Shown here piece after piece: positions 4,253 to 27,264 of a stretch of DNA of 34,966 nucleotides (within the stretch, counting starts at the first letter, position 1; each line of letters starts with the position of its first letter). The DNA is taken from assembly GCA_001823215.1 (NCBI GenBank), contig MHTV01000013.1:1-34966 (forward strand), given 5' to 3'. Both the position numbers and the translations under genes were made by a program. Source of the DNA: Candidatus Wildermuthbacteria bacterium RIFCSPHIGHO2_02_FULL_45_25. GTDB taxonomy: Bacteria; Patescibacteriota; Minisyncoccia; Minisyncoccales; UBA10102. The notes below the pieces were generated by a model that worked only from the letters and a program-made list of their open reading frames with translations, did not search any database and was not told the origin of the DNA.

Positions 4253-4861
4253 ATGGAACAGCTTGTGAAATTTCTTACTGAACAAGGAATCCTGAAAAGT
4301 CCGCATATCATTGACGCTTTTCATACTGTTGACCGCAAAGATTTCGTATTGGCTGAATATCAAGAACAGGCGTATGAGGATTATCCCCTTCCCATTGGAC
4401 ATAGCCAAACAATCTCCCAACCCAGCACCGTGGGCTTTATGCTCGAACTTCTTGGACCAACGCAAGGAGAAAAGATTCTTGATATGGGATCGGGTTCGGG
4501 CTGGACAACTGCTCTTCTGGCACAAATCGCAGGCGATCAAGGAAAAGTTTTTGGCATGGAAATTATTCCGGAACTTGTGAGCTTTGGCCAGAAAAATCTC
4601 CAAAAATATCATTTTTCAAATGCCGCCATTCTGCAAGCCACAGACGTATTGGGATATCCAAGCCAAGCTCCATTTGATAAAATTCTGGTTTCCGCCGCCG
4701 CAAAAGAAATTCCCCAACAACTGATTGATCAGCTTGTCATTGGCGGCATCATGGTTATCCCGATTGAAAACGCGGTATGGAAAATAAAAAAAGTATCTCC
4801 CAAAGAAACCGAAACGCAAAAATTCGAAGGATTTGTTTTTGTTCCCCTTGTTACCAAATAA
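4253..4861 (+). CDS. pcm: Protein-L-isoaspartate O-methyltransferase
   Basis: 202 aa; PLPIGHSQTISQPSTVGFMLELL and ILDMGSGSGWTTALLA (SAM motif I). Confidence 0.9.
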   Translation: MEQLVKFLTEQGILKSPHIIDAFHTVDRKDFVLAEYQEQAYEDYPLPIGHSQTISQPSTVGFMLELLGPTQGEKILDMGSGSGWTTALLAQIAGDQGKVFGMEIIPELVSFGQKNLQKYHFSNAAILQATDVLGYPSQAPFDKILVSAAAKEIPQQLIDQLVIGGIMVIPIENAVWKIKKVSPKETETQKFEGFVFVPLVTK

Positions 4862-5750
4862 TGGGAACGCCAAAAAACTGCAGCACATATCCTGTCGTAG
4901 AATCTTTGTTATTGCTCACGGAAGCAGAATTAAAAGTTCCCATCGGGAAATTGCTTGTCGCTCCCATACTCTTTACCGCCGCCATCATCGCCACAAGAGA
5001 TTGAGGGGAATCCGCTTCCACAAGTCCTGCTAACTTTGGCTCCATAAATGTGAGCGAATAAGCTGACTGTTCATCAAGAGGTCTTGCCTGTTCTTCCGGA
5101 AGATAATGAGAAAAATCCACGCTCGCGATAATAAACGTATTTGGTGTGGCTATCGAAGCAAGAAATTCCCCAAAAGATTCCGCCATCTCATTGGTACTGC
5201 TCGAACGGAATACAATAGGGACAACTGTTGCCTTTGGGAAAAATTTACCGATCAAGAGCATCTGCGAGTGGATCGAATGATCGTTAAACGGAAGCTCGTC
5301 ATGAACGGCAAATGTTTGCTCCTCGAGTTTATTAAGTAATGCTAAATCCGGCTTCAATCTTCCAAATGGCGTCAGAAACGGAGCTTTTGAGAAACTCACA
5401 TCGCCTTCTCCTCTCTCAAAATGGTCAGGGCCTAGGATGATAAAAGTATCCACTTGTTTGCTTTTTTGCAGTTTGGCATAAAATTCAACAAGCAAGGGAA
5501 TTGCGGTTGGAATATGATGGGGAACAACTCCTCCCATAAGATATTGCGCGGCTATAGCTTCCACATTCTCAAATTTTTCCGTTTGAGTTTCAATGTATCC
5601 CGCCTCTTTAAAGTACGCAGATACATGCGTTACACCCGACCCCTCTTTCTTGCTGGGAGTAATATCGTTATGAGCGCCACTCAAGGAAAGCGCAATGCCC
5701 GCAAAAACAACAATACAAACAGTTTGGAAGATGACAATTTTTCTTTTCAT
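4851..5750 (-). CDS. MEMO1 / AmmeMemoRadiSam protein B family, with N-terminal signal/TM anchor
   Basis: 299 aa; MEMO motifs VPHHIPTAIPLL, ILGPDHF, NDHSIHSQMLL, IIASVDFSHYLP; N-terminal hydrophobic segment. Confidence 0.85.
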   Translation of the reverse strand: MKRKIVIFQTVCIVVFAGIALSLSGAHNDITPSKKEGSGVTHVSAYFKEAGYIETQTEKFENVEAIAAQYLMGGVVPHHIPTAIPLLVEFYAKLQKSKQVDTFIILGPDHFERGEGDVSFSKAPFLTPFGRLKPDLALLNKLEEQTFAVHDELPFNDHSIHSQMLLIGKFFPKATVVPIVFRSSSTNEMAESFGEFLASIATPNTFIIASVDFSHYLPEEQARPLDEQSAYSLTFMEPKLAGLVEADSPQSLVAMMAAVKSMGATSNFPMGTFNSASVSNNKDSTTGYVLQFFGVPIIW

Positions 5751-8700
5751 TCGCGAATGCTTATTCGATCCGGAGCAGACACATTCAAACTTTGGGAACT
5801 TTTTGCGGACTGAATCAATACGGGTTCCGCCTCATATTCGCCTTTTGTCACCACTCTCGCATAATAAGAAAGCGCGGAGCACGATCCGAATTTCGGATTC
5901 CAATCTAAAAAGGTAACGGTCTGATCTTCAATGCGAGCTGGATATCGCACGCAATCGCCCTCTTTGCTCTGTATAACGTTGAGCCGTGTTACCGCTCGCA
6001 ACCCACTGGGCAAATGATCTATAACTTGATAGCGCCCCTTCAAAGCCCCTAATCCAAATGAATCGGATAATTCAATTTTTACGATATCTCCTTCTTTGAA
6101 TTCTGTCGTTGGCATCCCGTTTACCACATATCTTCTCGTAACACGCAAAGATTCATCCATTGCAAGCTCTTCTGGATCAACCGCTTGGTCATACCTGCTC
6201 ACTACATCAACTCGTCCGCTCACATTCTCAAAACGCAAAGTTTGCAATTCTTCTGGCGCCATCGCGAGCCGCACGCTTTCGCCTGCTTTCAGAGTATGCG
6301 AATCCGCGCGATCCTTTGTGCGATAGGCAAAACTCACATCTTCTCCTTTCAAGCGAGGCAACACAGCTTTCAGATATCCAAGTAACTCAAAGTTAATGAG
6401 CTTCTCTTTGGGCTGCTGTTCAAAAACATACGAAGCCAAACCTTCAGCTTCCGGCTCTTGAAGACTGCCCGCCAATTGAGCGAGAAGCGCAGTGAGAATA
6501 ATATTCTCATCTGCTGACTTTAATTCCTCCACAAAAAAATAGGGAGATTTGCTCACAAGTTTTTGTTTCAGATGCTCTTGATAATATGCGCGCGCCTCTT
6601 CTTTTGCTCCTATCGTATCGAGCGCAAGAGCAATATACGCCTTGTCCATAAGAGTCAAATCCTTTTCATCCTTGATATGTTGCAAACTCACCAACACCGG
6701 TTCTTTCAGCGCAGCCAATCCATACAAAGCCAAAACTACTCGAGAGGCATCTGCCTTTCTATCATTCAACGATTGAGTGAAATAGGTTTTGAGCATTTCT
6801 CGGGAAATATCTATATTCTCTTCTTTCATGAGATCGGCGAATTGAGCGCTCACTCGCAAATCCTCATCGCTATAAGGAAGCAAGGCAATACCTCCGCTTC
6901 CCGGCTGATACGCGCGAAATTCAGGAGATTCATCCTCTTGTTCTTCGCCAAAGAATTTTTTGAGCAAAAGCCCGCCGAAATACCGGCTTGAAACCTGATC
7001 CACTCTTACTCCACCGCTTTGAGCAAGAGCAAGAAGCGGCCAATAGTAGATTGCTCTTTCTTGCGAAGTGAAGATCAACTGCGTAAATCCCTTTTCGTTC
7101 CCTTTGATTCCTTCAAGCGAAGAACTCACTTGATGGTATTCAGCCGCACTTTGAGTAAAGTAACTATCGAGCACTCTTATCTCTTTTACGATCGCGTCGC
7201 TGAACCCTCCCGCATTCGCTGACACTTTTATCTGATGAGTTCCGACCGAAAGCTGTCCCAGATTAAATTCTTCCGAGCGAGATCCGGATTTTTCGAGCAA
7301 CTTGAAAGGCAACGTATCACTTTCCACGCGATAGGTTACAGGATATTGAATTTCTTCCGTGCCGAATACTCGCGTTCGAATAATAAGTTTATCGCCATCC
7401 AGATACGTTCGATTCAACGATGCCTCCACAAAGAGAGGCAATCCAACAGGAACAAACTCAATTGTTTTGCCCGCGAGCCAATCTTTACTCACTGCCTGCA
7501 ATGTTACTCTCCACGACGTGATATTGTCTGGTAACGCAAAGGAAACATTCGCGCGGCCGTCAGAATCCGTCAAAATAGATTTATATATCGCGACATCCTC
7601 AAATTCTCCCCGCGCTTCGCCTCCTCCTTTCTCTTCGTTATGAACATACAAGGTATCCGCAAAATAGGTATGATTGCCTTCCACTTCAAAGTTATGCACG
7701 TTCACCCACTCATCCACTTTTTGGATAGAAGTTACCGCAACTTGCTTGCCCATGGAATTTTGGAGCATATCGCCGATCTTCAATTGGCCGGCTTTGTTCC
7801 ATTCTCCATTGATATACAAGCGATGATTTTCGGTTACCCGAAGCTTGTCATTCACAATTACATATCCCCTCACCAAATGAGAAGTTACCCTTGCCACTTT
7901 TGCCTCCACCAATGCGCTTGAATCTTCCGATTCTTTTGTGAGAATTGTTTCGCCCGCATGCACGTCTTCAATGGATTTGGATCCCAACGGTGTCAAAATC
8001 TGTGTCCCCGACAAGAAACATCCTCCAAGCTCCGCGCCAGATTCCAATGGAGTGAGATGGGAAGATCTCGTCAAAAGGGAAACATACACGTCATTGTATA
8101 ACGCGCTTGTAATATCTTTTTCTGTAGGATTTAAGGTAAAAACCGCTTCATCCAAAGCGCCGATATGCACTTGAGCTTCTTTGGGATTGCCGTTGGGATC
8201 GGTTACTTCAATATTCAGCCGCACTTCTTCTCCCGGCTTATACCGTTCTTTATCTTTGCTTACGTTAATCTGTAATCTTTTTTCTTCCGCCTCAAAAGAC
8301 AAATTCATCGGCCAACTGTCATGAAATCTCTTGCCGCTAAACCAAACCCCAATGACATTCACATTCGGGATATACATATCCTGGAACGTATCGGTATAAT
8401 TTGGCTCATCGGCAAGCTCATACGAATGCACTCCGCCTACCACTCTTATAAACAGGAAATCACGAGGAGATGATGCCACCGCATTGCCAGCGTTATCCTG
8501 AAGCTCAAGAGAAATTTTCTCTCCAAGCTTGTATTGCTTTTTCTCTTCGTCTCTATTCTTTAATGCTACTCCAGAGGTATCATACCCGGAGAACGGCGAA
8601 CGAGAATATCCAAACGCATAGCGCTGAACTTCCACTGCGCGACCATTCGTGTCTCGCGTCGTAAAAATAATTTTATAAGTTTTGTCTTCTTCGAGCTTCT

Positions 8701-11065
8701 GTTCAAAAGACGTTTCCCCTTTATCGTCTGTTGTTACACTCATTTGTCGTACGGTGTGTTCCTCGGTCGAATAGTCGTAGATAGGGTACGTTGCCTTATT
8801 AATAATGTCGTATCTCGTGCCTATCTGCGTTTTCTTGAAGATCACTTCTTTAACCTCAACATTCACCGCGTTATTCGCAACCGCGGCGCCCAAATAATTA
8901 TTTTGAACCCAAAACGGCTGACCCGCTTGAATCTTCTCTAATGTAACTTCGCGCAATTTCAGATTGAACTTAGAACTATTGCTCCCTACCTGCTGATCTG
9001 CTTGCAGATCCATATTCGGTCCAAACACAAGCACCGACACGCTTTGAGCAATTTCTCCTTCCTCTGCCAACACCGGCGAAACTGTTATACGAAGATACTT
9101 TGGCCAATACGCGCTTGCGATATAATCGGTTTTCACGGTAAAGTTTCCTTCTCCATTTTCATCGAGTTGTACGCGCGAGCTAAGCGGACCGTTCAAATAC
9201 CCCGCGTATTTCATTTGTCCATTGGAAACCGGCGTGCCGTCAAAAAATTCTCCGCGCACCTTCATATTCACGGAATCTCCCGCGAAGATCGCATTTTTAT
9301 CTGGCGTTAGCGTCAAGCGATACGCAGGCGCAACATACGTTTCCACGCTGACATTTTCAGAAACAATAATCTCATCCCCTCTCTTCATGCTCAATTGATA
9401 CAACCCCGGCTTTAATCCGGAAAAATTCATCTCGCCTGTGAGCGTGTAAAAATCGCTTACCTTTGCCTTTGTTTGCGCATACACCGTTACGTCATCTCTC
9501 GACGTGCCGTACCAAAAAGGAGTGGAAAGTTGCATTGTAATTTCTTCCCCTTTCACGTCCGAGCCGTTTCTTTGCTTCATCACGCCCCAAAACCTCAATG
9601 TGTCATCTGGCTGATACACCGTCTTATCCAAAGATAGATAATCCCACCATTGATCAGGAGAATTTATTTTATAAAACCCTCCATATCGAGATTCAATCGG
9701 GATTGCCAATTCCTTGCCCTGCGCTTTGACGATATAAAAAAATGCGGGCTCCTTCCAATAAGAGTAAGCGTCATCGCGAGCAGAAACAAGATCTGCGGGA
9801 GTTTCAAATTGAGCTACTCCATCGGCATTTGTCTTTCCAATTTCACGACCCTCAAAACTTACATGGGCATCGGCTTCTCTCTGCCCTCGTATCAATGAAC
9901 GCAACCAAATCAAACTTTGACTTCCGCTTACCGCCACATAGTTTGAAAAATTCGTGACCTGAAACCACGCCTGATGTGGTTTTTTATCCACTGTTATCGT
10001 TAGAACATAATATCCTTCATCAAACTTTTGCGGAATTCGAATAAACTTCACGTCCAACTGATTTTCCATGGAAACATTGCTTTCAAAAATTTTCTTTTCG
10101 TCCGGAGCTTCATACGGAACAAACCGATTAAATCGGGACCAGTTTGTTTGGAATCGCAAAGAACTTTTATACGACTCGACAAATTGGTTCACGGTATCAA
10201 AACGAGCTACATTCACTGATAATTGAGAAGCGTTCGGGACGTTGGAGGCATATACGGCAAACGCTGGTTCATTTGCCAAAGGAAATTCCCAAAACGTTTT
10301 ATCGAAGCCAAACTGCGCCATGGAATAACTCGGGCTTTCTGCTTCAGTTTCAAATTGAAAGACGTGATTTTCAGATAATGCGTCTTCACTACCTTCACTC
10401 TTCAGCCCCTTTTTCACGGTAACCGTGTATACTTTTTGAGGATCCAACGGACGGTTGGGAATAAACACGAGTACATTTCTGTGCTGTTCAAACTTTCCCT
10501 GAATTTGGGGAAAAAATTCCACGTAATCCTGCGGATGAATCAGCTTCTCTCGGTTAAACGTTATCTCAATGCCAGTTGGAACGGAAACTCCAGACCCCTT
10601 GTCTCGCGGAAGCGTTGAGATAACCTGAAAAGGAGCTTTCACCTGATACGCCCAGCTATATGTTTTTTCCGAGATAGGACTCTCGTCAATTTTAAACGTT
10701 ACAATCGCGTTCTCTGGCAGCTTCTCTTTCGGCTTAATCTCAAAACCTCCCAAAACCTTCTTAACCTCTATTTTCACATCGGGATCCAAGGATAAATATC
10801 TCTCAACTGCGCTCTCATCAATATCCGCCGCACTCTTTAAGGTAAAGGTTGTGGAAGGATGAATGCCAGCCGCATCCGCGACATCGGCACGAAGCTCGAA
10901 CTGCGAAAACGCGACTTTTTCTTTTTTTACAGCGCCAGACAATGCCAAACCTGCCCCGACAATCAGCGCAAAAGCAATCAGAACATTGAGATGTGGCCGA
11001 TCTTTAAAAAAATCGAAAATTTTTCTCATAGTTGAAACAGCAAAAGGATGACATATCTTCATCAT
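5747..11065 (-). CDS. Alpha-2-macroglobulin-family protein with embedded Hint/intein-like domain
   Basis: 1772 aa; N-terminal TM segment (LNVLIAFALIVGAGLALSGA), MG-type repeats, A2M core GALDEAVFTL...YKSILTDSDGRANVSFALPDNITSWRVTLQAVSKDWLAG, C-terminal receptor-like domain. Probable true start is the internal ATG at 11029 (MRKIFDFF). Confidence 0.92.
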   Translation of the reverse strand: MMKICHPFAVSTMRKIFDFFKDRPHLNVLIAFALIVGAGLALSGAVKKEKVAFSQFELRADVADAAGIHPSTTFTLKSAADIDESAVERYLSLDPDVKIEVKKVLGGFEIKPKEKLPENAIVTFKIDESPISEKTYSWAYQVKAPFQVISTLPRDKGSGVSVPTGIEITFNREKLIHPQDYVEFFPQIQGKFEQHRNVLVFIPNRPLDPQKVYTVTVKKGLKSEGSEDALSENHVFQFETEAESPSYSMAQFGFDKTFWEFPLANEPAFAVYASNVPNASQLSVNVARFDTVNQFVESYKSSLRFQTNWSRFNRFVPYEAPDEKKIFESNVSMENQLDVKFIRIPQKFDEGYYVLTITVDKKPHQAWFQVTNFSNYVAVSGSQSLIWLRSLIRGQREADAHVSFEGREIGKTNADGVAQFETPADLVSARDDAYSYWKEPAFFYIVKAQGKELAIPIESRYGGFYKINSPDQWWDYLSLDKTVYQPDDTLRFWGVMKQRNGSDVKGEEITMQLSTPFWYGTSRDDVTVYAQTKAKVSDFYTLTGEMNFSGLKPGLYQLSMKRGDEIIVSENVSVETYVAPAYRLTLTPDKNAIFAGDSVNMKVRGEFFDGTPVSNGQMKYAGYLNGPLSSRVQLDENGEGNFTVKTDYIASAYWPKYLRITVSPVLAEEGEIAQSVSVLVFGPNMDLQADQQVGSNSSKFNLKLREVTLEKIQAGQPFWVQNNYLGAAVANNAVNVEVKEVIFKKTQIGTRYDIINKATYPIYDYSTEEHTVRQMSVTTDDKGETSFEQKLEEDKTYKIIFTTRDTNGRAVEVQRYAFGYSRSPFSGYDTSGVALKNRDEEKKQYKLGEKISLELQDNAGNAVASSPRDFLFIRVVGGVHSYELADEPNYTDTFQDMYIPNVNVIGVWFSGKRFHDSWPMNLSFEAEEKRLQINVSKDKERYKPGEEVRLNIEVTDPNGNPKEAQVHIGALDEAVFTLNPTEKDITSALYNDVYVSLLTRSSHLTPLESGAELGGCFLSGTQILTPLGSKSIEDVHAGETILTKESEDSSALVEAKVARVTSHLVRGYVIVNDKLRVTENHRLYINGEWNKAGQLKIGDMLQNSMGKQVAVTSIQKVDEWVNVHNFEVEGNHTYFADTLYVHNEEKGGGEARGEFEDVAIYKSILTDSDGRANVSFALPDNITSWRVTLQAVSKDWLAGKTIEFVPVGLPLFVEASLNRTYLDGDKLIIRTRVFGTEEIQYPVTYRVESDTLPFKLLEKSGSRSEEFNLGQLSVGTHQIKVSANAGGFSDAIVKEIRVLDSYFTQSAAEYHQVSSSLEGIKGNEKGFTQLIFTSQERAIYYWPLLALAQSGGVRVDQVSSRYFGGLLLKKFFGEEQEDESPEFRAYQPGSGGIALLPYSDEDLRVSAQFADLMKEENIDISREMLKTYFTQSLNDRKADASRVVLALYGLAALKEPVLVSLQHIKDEKDLTLMDKAYIALALDTIGAKEEARAYYQEHLKQKLVSKSPYFFVEELKSADENIILTALLAQLAGSLQEPEAEGLASYVFEQQPKEKLINFELLGYLKAVLPRLKGEDVSFAYRTKDRADSHTLKAGESVRLAMAPEELQTLRFENVSGRVDVVSRYDQAVDPEELAMDESLRVTRRYVVNGMPTTEFKEGDIVKIELSDSFGLGALKGRYQVIDHLPSGLRAVTRLNVIQSKEGDCVRYPARIEDQTVTFLDWNPKFGSCSALSYYARVVTKGEYEAEPVLIQSAKSSQSLNVSAPDRISIRE
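7637..8020 (-). other. Hint / bacterial intein-like (BIL, A-type-like) domain within the A2M CDS (residues ~1016-1143)
   Basis: 128 codons: CFLSGTQILTPLGSKSIEDVHAGETILTKE (block A) ... LRVTENHRLYINGEW (block B TxxH) ... HNFEVEGNHTYFADTLYVHN (blocks F/G); followed by Glu rather than Cys/Ser/Thr. Confidence 0.88.
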
Positions 11066-25833: not shown

Positions 25834-27264
25834 CTACTTCTTTTTCCGCAATTGATACGCGGCAGCATCAAAGGGAGTGCCTTGCAACGCATCCGTCGTG
25901 TAAATATTGCTCGGGTTCCATATCATATATCCCGCATAATCTTCTCCAAGCGCTTGTTTGGTAGCTTCAATTTCAGCTTGCACCATCACTTTGTCGTAAT
26001 TCGCGCCCAAGTCAAAATCTTGCAGCCAAGGCCGCAACTTGGCAATTTTGCGTTCAGGATATAAAAAGCGATAGTGTCTTAATCGTTCCACCGCGGTTTG
26101 CATGGAATATTGCACAACCTCGTAGGGATATTCCGCAGGGTTTGCATACCCTTTAAATCCGTCAGCATAATGCGATGGATATACCATGGGAGCTATGTAA
26201 TCGAAATATCCATACGCGTCCTCGATCACCTGCCCGATTCCCAAATCATCTCGATTGATTGTTGTCAAACCAAATAAATCGGCAGATATTGGCGTGTCGG
26301 GCAGCGTTTCTCTCAAATATGCGAAAAATTCGCTCAATATCTCCCGCCGAGGACTTATCTCATTCCAAAAGGGAAACGTCATATCCTGCATATCTCCATC
26401 AGAAGGAAAACGGATATAGTCAAAATTTATTTCATCAAAGCCGCGAGAAACTGCGTCTTTTGCCAAAGCTCCCACATATTCCCAGTATTCTTTCGCCGCA
26501 GGATCAATCCATGCCAATTCATTCCGATCCAGCCAAAGAGTCTCAACCGAAAAAGCGGGTTTCTCTTGAACCCATTCCTCATTTTTCTCGAGAAGATTAC
26601 TCCTGCTCTGCACCCCCAAATCAGGTCGTGCTTTTGCCAAAATCGGATCCTGAAAAACCGTAATTCTTGCAATCGCATACATGTTTGCTTCGTGGAAGCC
26701 GCGAATGACTCCTTCGATATCGCGGATTCGCTTTTGTTCTGCGCCATATAATTGAGCTGTTTGCACATTCGTATCGTAAGAAATTGTTCCTGAAAAATCT
26801 TTCACGTCAATAACAACCGCGTTGATCTCGCCCGATCTTGCCAAATTTTTTGCGTATTCAATTTTTGTTGGCGAACCCCCGGACCAACCAGTAAGGTACA
26901 CGGCGCGGATTTGAGAAGGCGCCTGCGCTAATTGCCCCTGTGGATTGTACTCTATGACATCTCTTGCCGGAATGTTGGGAGACGGCAAGGGAGAGGGAAT
27001 TTGAGGAGAAAAAAGCAAAGGAGAAAAAACAGGTGAAGGTTCCTCACTTGCTACCGGCGCAGGGGAAGACCGATAGTCCGAGGAAGAAGGAATCACCTCG
27101 TTTGCTCCCGCGATCGGGATAAAACCTCCCTCTGTCTTTTCATATCCAAATACCCAATAAAACGCTCCAGATTGATAATCTTGCCGCAAAAGAAAACCTC
27201 CCAATGCGAACTCCATCAAGAAAGAGAAAAGCAGGATACAAATAGCAATGCGATTTCTAGTCAC
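25834..27264 (-). CDS. Putative glycoside hydrolase (DUF4015-like), membrane-anchored
   Basis: 476 aa; AVYLTGWSGG, NAVVIDVKDFSGTISYDT, FDEINFDYIRFPSDG, YIAPMVYPSHYADGFKG, RPWLQDFDLG; N-terminal TM plus Pro/Ser linker. Confidence 0.87.
   Translation of the reverse strand: MTRNRIAICILLFSFLMEFALGGFLLRQDYQSGAFYWVFGYEKTEGGFIPIAGANEVIPSSSDYRSSPAPVASEEPSPVFSPLLFSPQIPSPLPSPNIPARDVIEYNPQGQLAQAPSQIRAVYLTGWSGGSPTKIEYAKNLARSGEINAVVIDVKDFSGTISYDTNVQTAQLYGAEQKRIRDIEGVIRGFHEANMYAIARITVFQDPILAKARPDLGVQSRSNLLEKNEEWVQEKPAFSVETLWLDRNELAWIDPAAKEYWEYVGALAKDAVSRGFDEINFDYIRFPSDGDMQDMTFPFWNEISPRREILSEFFAYLRETLPDTPISADLFGLTTINRDDLGIGQVIEDAYGYFDYIAPMVYPSHYADGFKGYANPAEYPYEVVQYSMQTAVERLRHYRFLYPERKIAKLRPWLQDFDLGANYDKVMVQAEIEATKQALGEDYAGYMIWNPSNIYTTDALQGTPFDAAAYQLRKKK

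Follow-up and report, generated by a model that had tools for sequence, protein, structure and literature searches.

The window analysed here, a stretch of 34,966 nucleotides from Candidatus Wildermuthbacteria bacterium RIFCSPHIGHO2_02_FULL_45_25, belongs to an assembly of 868 kb in 46 contigs that is approximately 97 % complete. Its reverse strand carries a gene for a protein of the alpha-2-macroglobulin (A2M) family, other members of which trap proteases, with a Hint domain inserted in frame (Table 1). Pfam matches were found in the order Big_5, MG2 (just under the cut-off), A2M_BRD, PT-HINT (residues 1023–1137), PF00207 and a weak bMG10, with A2M_BRD and PF00207 both above their cut-offs on either side of PT-HINT. 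Macroglobulin domains, a bait domain, a TED and an MG10-like region were all recognized, as in other bacterial A2Ms, and assignment to this class was supported by matches of the structure model to the folds of A2M, C5 and CD109. Elsewhere in the window, positions 25834–27264 encode a DUF4015 putative glycosyl hydrolase (287 bits).

Table 1. Features of the A2M–Hint locus, in window positions
Feature	Position	Strand	Remarks
A2M-family gene, 1772 aa	5747..11065	(-)	no internal stop
Predicted N-terminal membrane anchor (LNVLIAFALIVGAGLALSGA)	10928..10990	(-)	predicted from sequence alone
A2M_BRD (PF07703), aa 841-978	8132..8545	(-)	40.8 bits; N-terminal part of split bait-bearing macroglobulin domain
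N-side bait flank SGAELGG, aa 1009-1015	8021..8041	(-)	
Hint / A-type BIL domain, 128 residues, C1016 to N1143	7637..8020	(-)	Pfam, phmmer, structure models
Cys1 (C1016), first nucleophile	8018..8020	(-)	invariant, 71 homologues
Block B TENH, aa 1078-1081	7823..7834	(-)	T and H invariant
Terminal His-Asn, aa 1142-1143	7637..7642	(-)	invariant, 71 homologues
C-side bait flank EEKGGG, aa 1144-1149	7619..7636	(-)	+1 = Glu, +3 = Lys
A2M (PF00207), aa 1160-1240	7346..7588	(-)	37.3 bits; C-terminal part of bait-bearing macroglobulin domain and next domain
Thioester-motif site, aa 1351-1357	6995..7015	(-)	GGVRVDQ replaces GCxEQ
Memo-family protein	4851..5750	(-)	start 4 bp inside A2M stop (genes overlap 4 bp); conserved operon partner of A2M subfamily

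The absence of CxEQ from the window protein is a point missing from the preliminary description of this DNA. Since xRxDQ stands in its place here and in most of the Hint-carrying relatives described below, these proteins are type II A2Ms in the sense of PMC5764988. MagD of Pseudomonas aeruginosa, the type II protein of that study, likewise has a bait loop and no CxEQ thioester, but the window A2M differs in having a Hint domain in the bait and, in place of mag operon partners, Memo-like and aldehyde dehydrogenase genes as neighbours. The type I proteins ECAM (YfhM) and Salmonella A2M share the domain order and a bait within a split macroglobulin domain.

The inserted Hint domain

The domain starts with Cys-Phe after a Gly-Gly pair (GG-CFLSGTQILTPLG), contains HTYF and ends in LYVHN (residues 1139–1143), which is followed by EEKGGG. 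It scored 48 bits against PT-HINT (PF07591; cut-off 27.7), at the only place in the assembly matched by that family, and phmmer matched it to a solved BIL domain (2lwy, E=2.2e-11). An uninterrupted A2M reading frame with a 128-codon insert at 7637–8020, bearing Cys1, TENH and a C-terminal LYVHN, had been reported in the preliminary description; its coordinates were exact, every hallmark was present, and the HMM searches it had proposed recovered the Hint family and both flanking A2M families above cut-off. The proposed structure prediction agreed. In an AlphaFold2 model run with 35 homologues (mean pLDDT 83.8), the Hint domain was confident (pLDDT >90 over most of its length) and was tied to the macroglobulin domain, the flanking strands of which were also confident, by two disordered linkers (model residues 177–189 and 320–331). 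The whole model matched the folds of CD109, A2ML1, C5 and ECAM, while the top PDB matches of the Hint domain by itself were BIL2 (6y75 and 6tmm) and the BIL domain 2lwy (TM about 0.78–0.84). The predicted Hint fold is closest to those of A-type bacterial intein-like (BIL) domains.

Related Hint classes fit less well. The PF07591 score is above the curated cut-off, as for the pretoxin HINT domains of polymorphic toxins, but what stands C-terminal of it is the rest of the A2M rather than a toxin domain for release. Class 1 inteins have a nucleophile at +1, where the window protein has Glu, and they usually, though not universally, contain a homing endonuclease or reside in an essential housekeeping protein; here there is a 128-residue Hint domain only, in an A2M. 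The reading as an A-type BIL domain, already proposed from the HN end and the missing +1 nucleophile, was supported by the fold, by Cys1, TxxH and His-Asn in 71 of 71 homologues and by the lack of Cys, Ser or Thr at +1 in 70 of these. The same fold and the same combination of Cys1, TxxH, HN end and no +1 nucleophile are found in A-type BILs such as 2lwy of C. thermocellum. The differences lie in the host, an A2M bait loop, which is not among the BIL hosts known to us, and in an active site that is invariant across a widespread A2M family.

The insertion site was identified by comparison with Hint-less relatives. In the closest two (L082 and L085; 56–57 % identity in the best segment) the empty site reads LDEAVF...GGGGAEKGGGGDDAPRSNIQEMAIFKSV, and its counterpart in the window protein reads LDEAVF...LESGAELGG-(Hint)-EEKGGGEARGEFEDVAIYKSI. 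Hint-less relatives have a Gly-rich loop at this site, with AExGG and xKGG, and the comparison thus indicates that the Hint domain splits such a loop, which connects the halves of a single macroglobulin domain. Profile alignments with characterized proteins led to the same place. C5 was matched at 505–611 and 785–935 with the Hint domain in between, the gap between these matches containing C5a, and human A2M was matched from 695 and ECAM from 937–954, with the flanks aligned and the Hint domain skipped. The ECAM bait is a disordered loop that contains no domain (PMC4498604), whereas the window A2M bait contains a Hint domain; in elastase-cleaved ECAM, bait residues 923–942 are disordered, and this segment stands just ahead of the ECAM profile match. 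The placement in the bait region made in the preliminary description is supported by the Pfam boundaries, the Gly-rich site of Hint-less relatives and these profile matches.

Loop length was measured from a conserved DEA to a conserved RxxF past the loop. Once the Hint domain was subtracted, the median for type II carriers was 55 residues (44–62, n=61), identical to that for type II relatives with no Hint domain (mostly 52–64, n=26). These equal lengths imply that the insert acts like a precise addition and that the joined flanks, which resemble the native Gly-rich AExGG/KGG bait, would form an ordinary bait, although the equality could alternatively reflect structural limits on each arm. As read from these sequences, the Hint domain occupies the bait loop of a predicted surface A2M with no loss of host residues.

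Distribution, conservation and A2M types

To cover relatives, 85,462 species genomes were scanned with an MG6-Hint-MG7 profile and the order, class and phylum of the window were searched; phyla beyond Patescibacteria were covered by pattern scan only. Both A2Ms with and A2Ms without the insert, for which the preliminary description had proposed a search, were recovered. In total, 71 distinct complete A2M–Hint proteins were obtained, from Patescibacteria (Kerfeld-, Uhr-, Portnoy-, Peregrini-, Gottesman-, Collier-, Magasanik-, Doudna- and Moranbacteria, among others) and one WOR-1 genome (L055), with a further case in Falkowbacteria (L080) that is partly masked by N. Some members were found by a pattern containing VHNEEK; profile searches, which are free of this bias, agreed. 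No relative was found in the 24 other genomes of the window's own family. As approximately 70 homologues share the insert at the same place, chance is excluded as its origin.

C1-F2, TxxH and HN were kept in all 71 proteins (70 tabulated plus L161), and no A2M with a Hint domain missing a catalytic residue was seen among the homologues found. The −1 residue was Gly in nearly all of the 70 tabulated sequences, and the N-flank ended in Gly-Gly in most. At +1, Asp (24) and Glu (22) predominated, followed by Gln (10), Ala (6), Asn (4), Gly (2), Ser (1) and Lys (1); Cys and Thr were never found there in the 71 homologues, and the single Ser was in L074. All 70 of the tabulated C-flanks had a Lys at +1 to +3, and L161 had one at +2. 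Close pairs with dS <1 gave a Hint dN/dS of approximately 0.06–0.11, similar to that of the macroglobulin core, so the Hint domain is under purifying selection as judged from these substitution rates. A widespread bacterial A2M subfamily is predicted to carry its own cutting domain in the bait loop, with an invariant active site.

Hint domains occurred in both thioester-containing and thioester-less A2Ms, eight carriers (L120–L124 and L156–L158) having kept CxEQ as in type I ECAM and Salmonella A2M. A general role of the Hint domain as replacement for a lost thioester was rejected on account of these eight carriers and of the many Hint-less relatives that likewise have no CxEQ. Carriers lay in both deep branches of a core tree reconstructed without the Hint domain, with eight changes of Hint state, and a type II tree had nine. 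Mean identity within type II was 33 % for cores and 45 % for Hint domains; between types it was 20 and 42 %, respectively. The Hint domains of type I carriers nested among those of type II (moderate support in a tree of 129 columns). Because Hint domains are approximately 42 % identical between types and cores approximately 20 %, the Hint domain has probably been transferred between the A2M types while keeping its site.

This scattered presence and apparent movement would also suit an intein-like passenger that is mainly selfish or inert, in which an ‘intact or absent’ pattern is expected if the passenger splices itself out. Alternatively, the domain may be a folded cap giving the bait steric protection, again with no regulatory role. 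We regard such readings as unlikely. There is no endonuclease and no +1 nucleophile for clean splicing, and a mere cap would not be expected to preserve Cys1, His and Asn. PF07591 was above its cut-off in 9 of 144 sampled Patescibacteria genomes, in 9/9 at this A2M position and in no other host. In addition, a second Hint subtype occupies the same site: L160 and L161 have a longer domain (with an extra DPLVEITFSDGSTLEVTTNH-like stretch) between AEGGG and xKG, in A2Ms of approximately 2000 residues without CxEQ, and this is possibly a separate acquisition.

A separate type I A2M is common in Patescibacteria (L007–L030 and L130–L140). It has approximately 2180 residues and no Hint domain, its TKGG bait motif is near-invariant, and three members (L009, L019 and L131) have lost the thioester Cys.

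Predicted self-excision and competing readings

A2Ms and complement proteins are armed when outside proteases cut one loop. In complement C3 and C5, too, an entire domain has been inserted where the bait would be, the anaphylatoxin domain, which is excised by other proteases; a Hint domain, in contrast, can in principle cut itself. In Hint chemistry, Cys1 and TxxH produce a thioester at the N-end and His-Asn produces cleavage at the C-end. In type A BILs the freed amine attacks the thioester, giving splicing without a +1 nucleophile, and cleavage dominates (PMC4031507).

Excision of the Hint domain in one form or another is the favoured reading, to which sequence and model together lend a probability of roughly 0.75. 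Both reaction ends are conserved, which suits excision better than a Hedgehog-like reaction at the N-end only. Excision is also favoured by the constancy of C1-F2, TxxH and HN, given that identity is only ~33 % among thioester-less cores and ~20 % between the two A2M types. The preliminary description had proposed self-processing at the bait region, a conformational trigger or covalent capture as what the Hint domain may do. The apparently intact self-cutting domain suggests that this A2M trap processes its own trigger. After export, a thioester would form at Gly1015-Cys1016 by N-S acyl shift, and cyclization of Asn1143 would free the C-end of the Hint domain, which would thereby excise itself. 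The thioester may then be attacked by the amine released on the C-half, or by a Lys close to it, which would re-join the halves and leave a continuous Gly-rich bait of native length (AELGG-EEKGGG), and arming of the A2M would be delayed or gated until the Hint domain had gone.

Ligation of the two halves is put forward tentatively, at somewhat less than even odds. The lean towards it comes from the flanks, which stay native, and from the eight thioester-bearing carriers, which constitutive bait cutting would fire. Against it, the +1 residue is D, E, Q, A, N, G or K in 70 of 71 homologues, and known A-type BILs yield mainly cleavage products. Self-cutting without re-joining is nearly as likely. 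It would produce a two-chain A2M with its halves kept together by the split macroglobulin domain, an N-end cut resembling chain maturation in C3 and C5 and a C-end cut at Asn resembling release of C3a or C5a, that is, a self-trigger. The near-absence of a +1 nucleophile and the habit of A-type BILs mostly to cleave suit this reading, as do the location of the Hint domain at the position of the C5 insert and the behaviour of MagD, whose bait-cut fragments remain associated and retain protease (PMC5764988). However, constitutive cuts would disarm the carriers with CxEQ unless gated, and the native length and Gly-rich motifs of the flanks would be left unexplained.

A different use of the thioester is suggested by BIL2 of Tetrahymena BUBL1, the best fold match, which is reported to form a Lys isopeptide and to dispense a ubiquitin-like protein (PMC8616854). 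The Gly-Gly ahead of Cys1 and the Lys past the Hint domain recall this isopeptide splicing, and most carriers are missing the CxEQ thioester. In this reading of covalent capture or transfer, the Gly-Gly-Cys thioester might be attacked by Lys from a target protein or from the C-flank itself, giving an isopeptide link. The window protein, however, has no ubiquitin-like domains, its flanks are macroglobulin strands, and isopeptide chemistry is putative here. Lys was present in 62/62 Hint proteins compared with 15/33 Hint-less type II proteins (raw Fisher p ~1e-10, with L161, a Hint protein, counted as Hint-less), but independent pairs drawn from the tree gave no significant association. Baits that have no Hint domain contain KGG as well, almost without exception in thioester A2Ms and in about half of the remainder, and the post-Hint Lys was not accepted as proof of Lys chemistry, KGG being native bait sequence. 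Furthermore, Hint and CxEQ coexist in eight carriers, and transfer alone would need no terminal Asn. Capture or transfer of the BUBL1 kind is distinctly improbable, and we would give very little weight to the idea that isopeptide self-ligation makes or arms the bait, with the Gly-Gly thioester going to the +2/+3 Lys in the C-flank or to a protease that attacks it. Were an isopeptide reading true, BUBL-like Hint chemistry would constitute a second covalent device beside, or replacing, the CxEQ thioester.

No earlier account of a Hint domain or intein in an A2M was found in the literature searched, which lay mostly outside subscription journals. If active, the preferred self-excising domain would be the first self-processed bait in that literature and would provide a natural case of regulation by BIL domains, the biological roles of which are, to our knowledge, mostly unclear. 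It also provides a hypothesis for protease handling at the surface of episymbiotic Patescibacteria.

Gene neighbourhood

Among loci with enough sequence, the A2M–Memo pair was present in 35 of 49 with and 15 of 25 without the Hint domain. A link between Memo and Hint was therefore rejected, and Memo is tied to the A2M subfamily. We know of no described A2M–Memo operon. Membrane-anchored-looking Memo proteins (PF01875) follow thioester-less A2Ms in Patescibacteria, Clostridia, Chloroflexi and Acidobacteria, the genes usually overlapping or abutting. Of 52 carrier loci, 18 had a sigma-70-family gene (regions 2 and 4, ECF-like) near the A2M–Hint gene (e.g. L049:3303-4079), and this recurrent neighbour suggests envelope-stress control.
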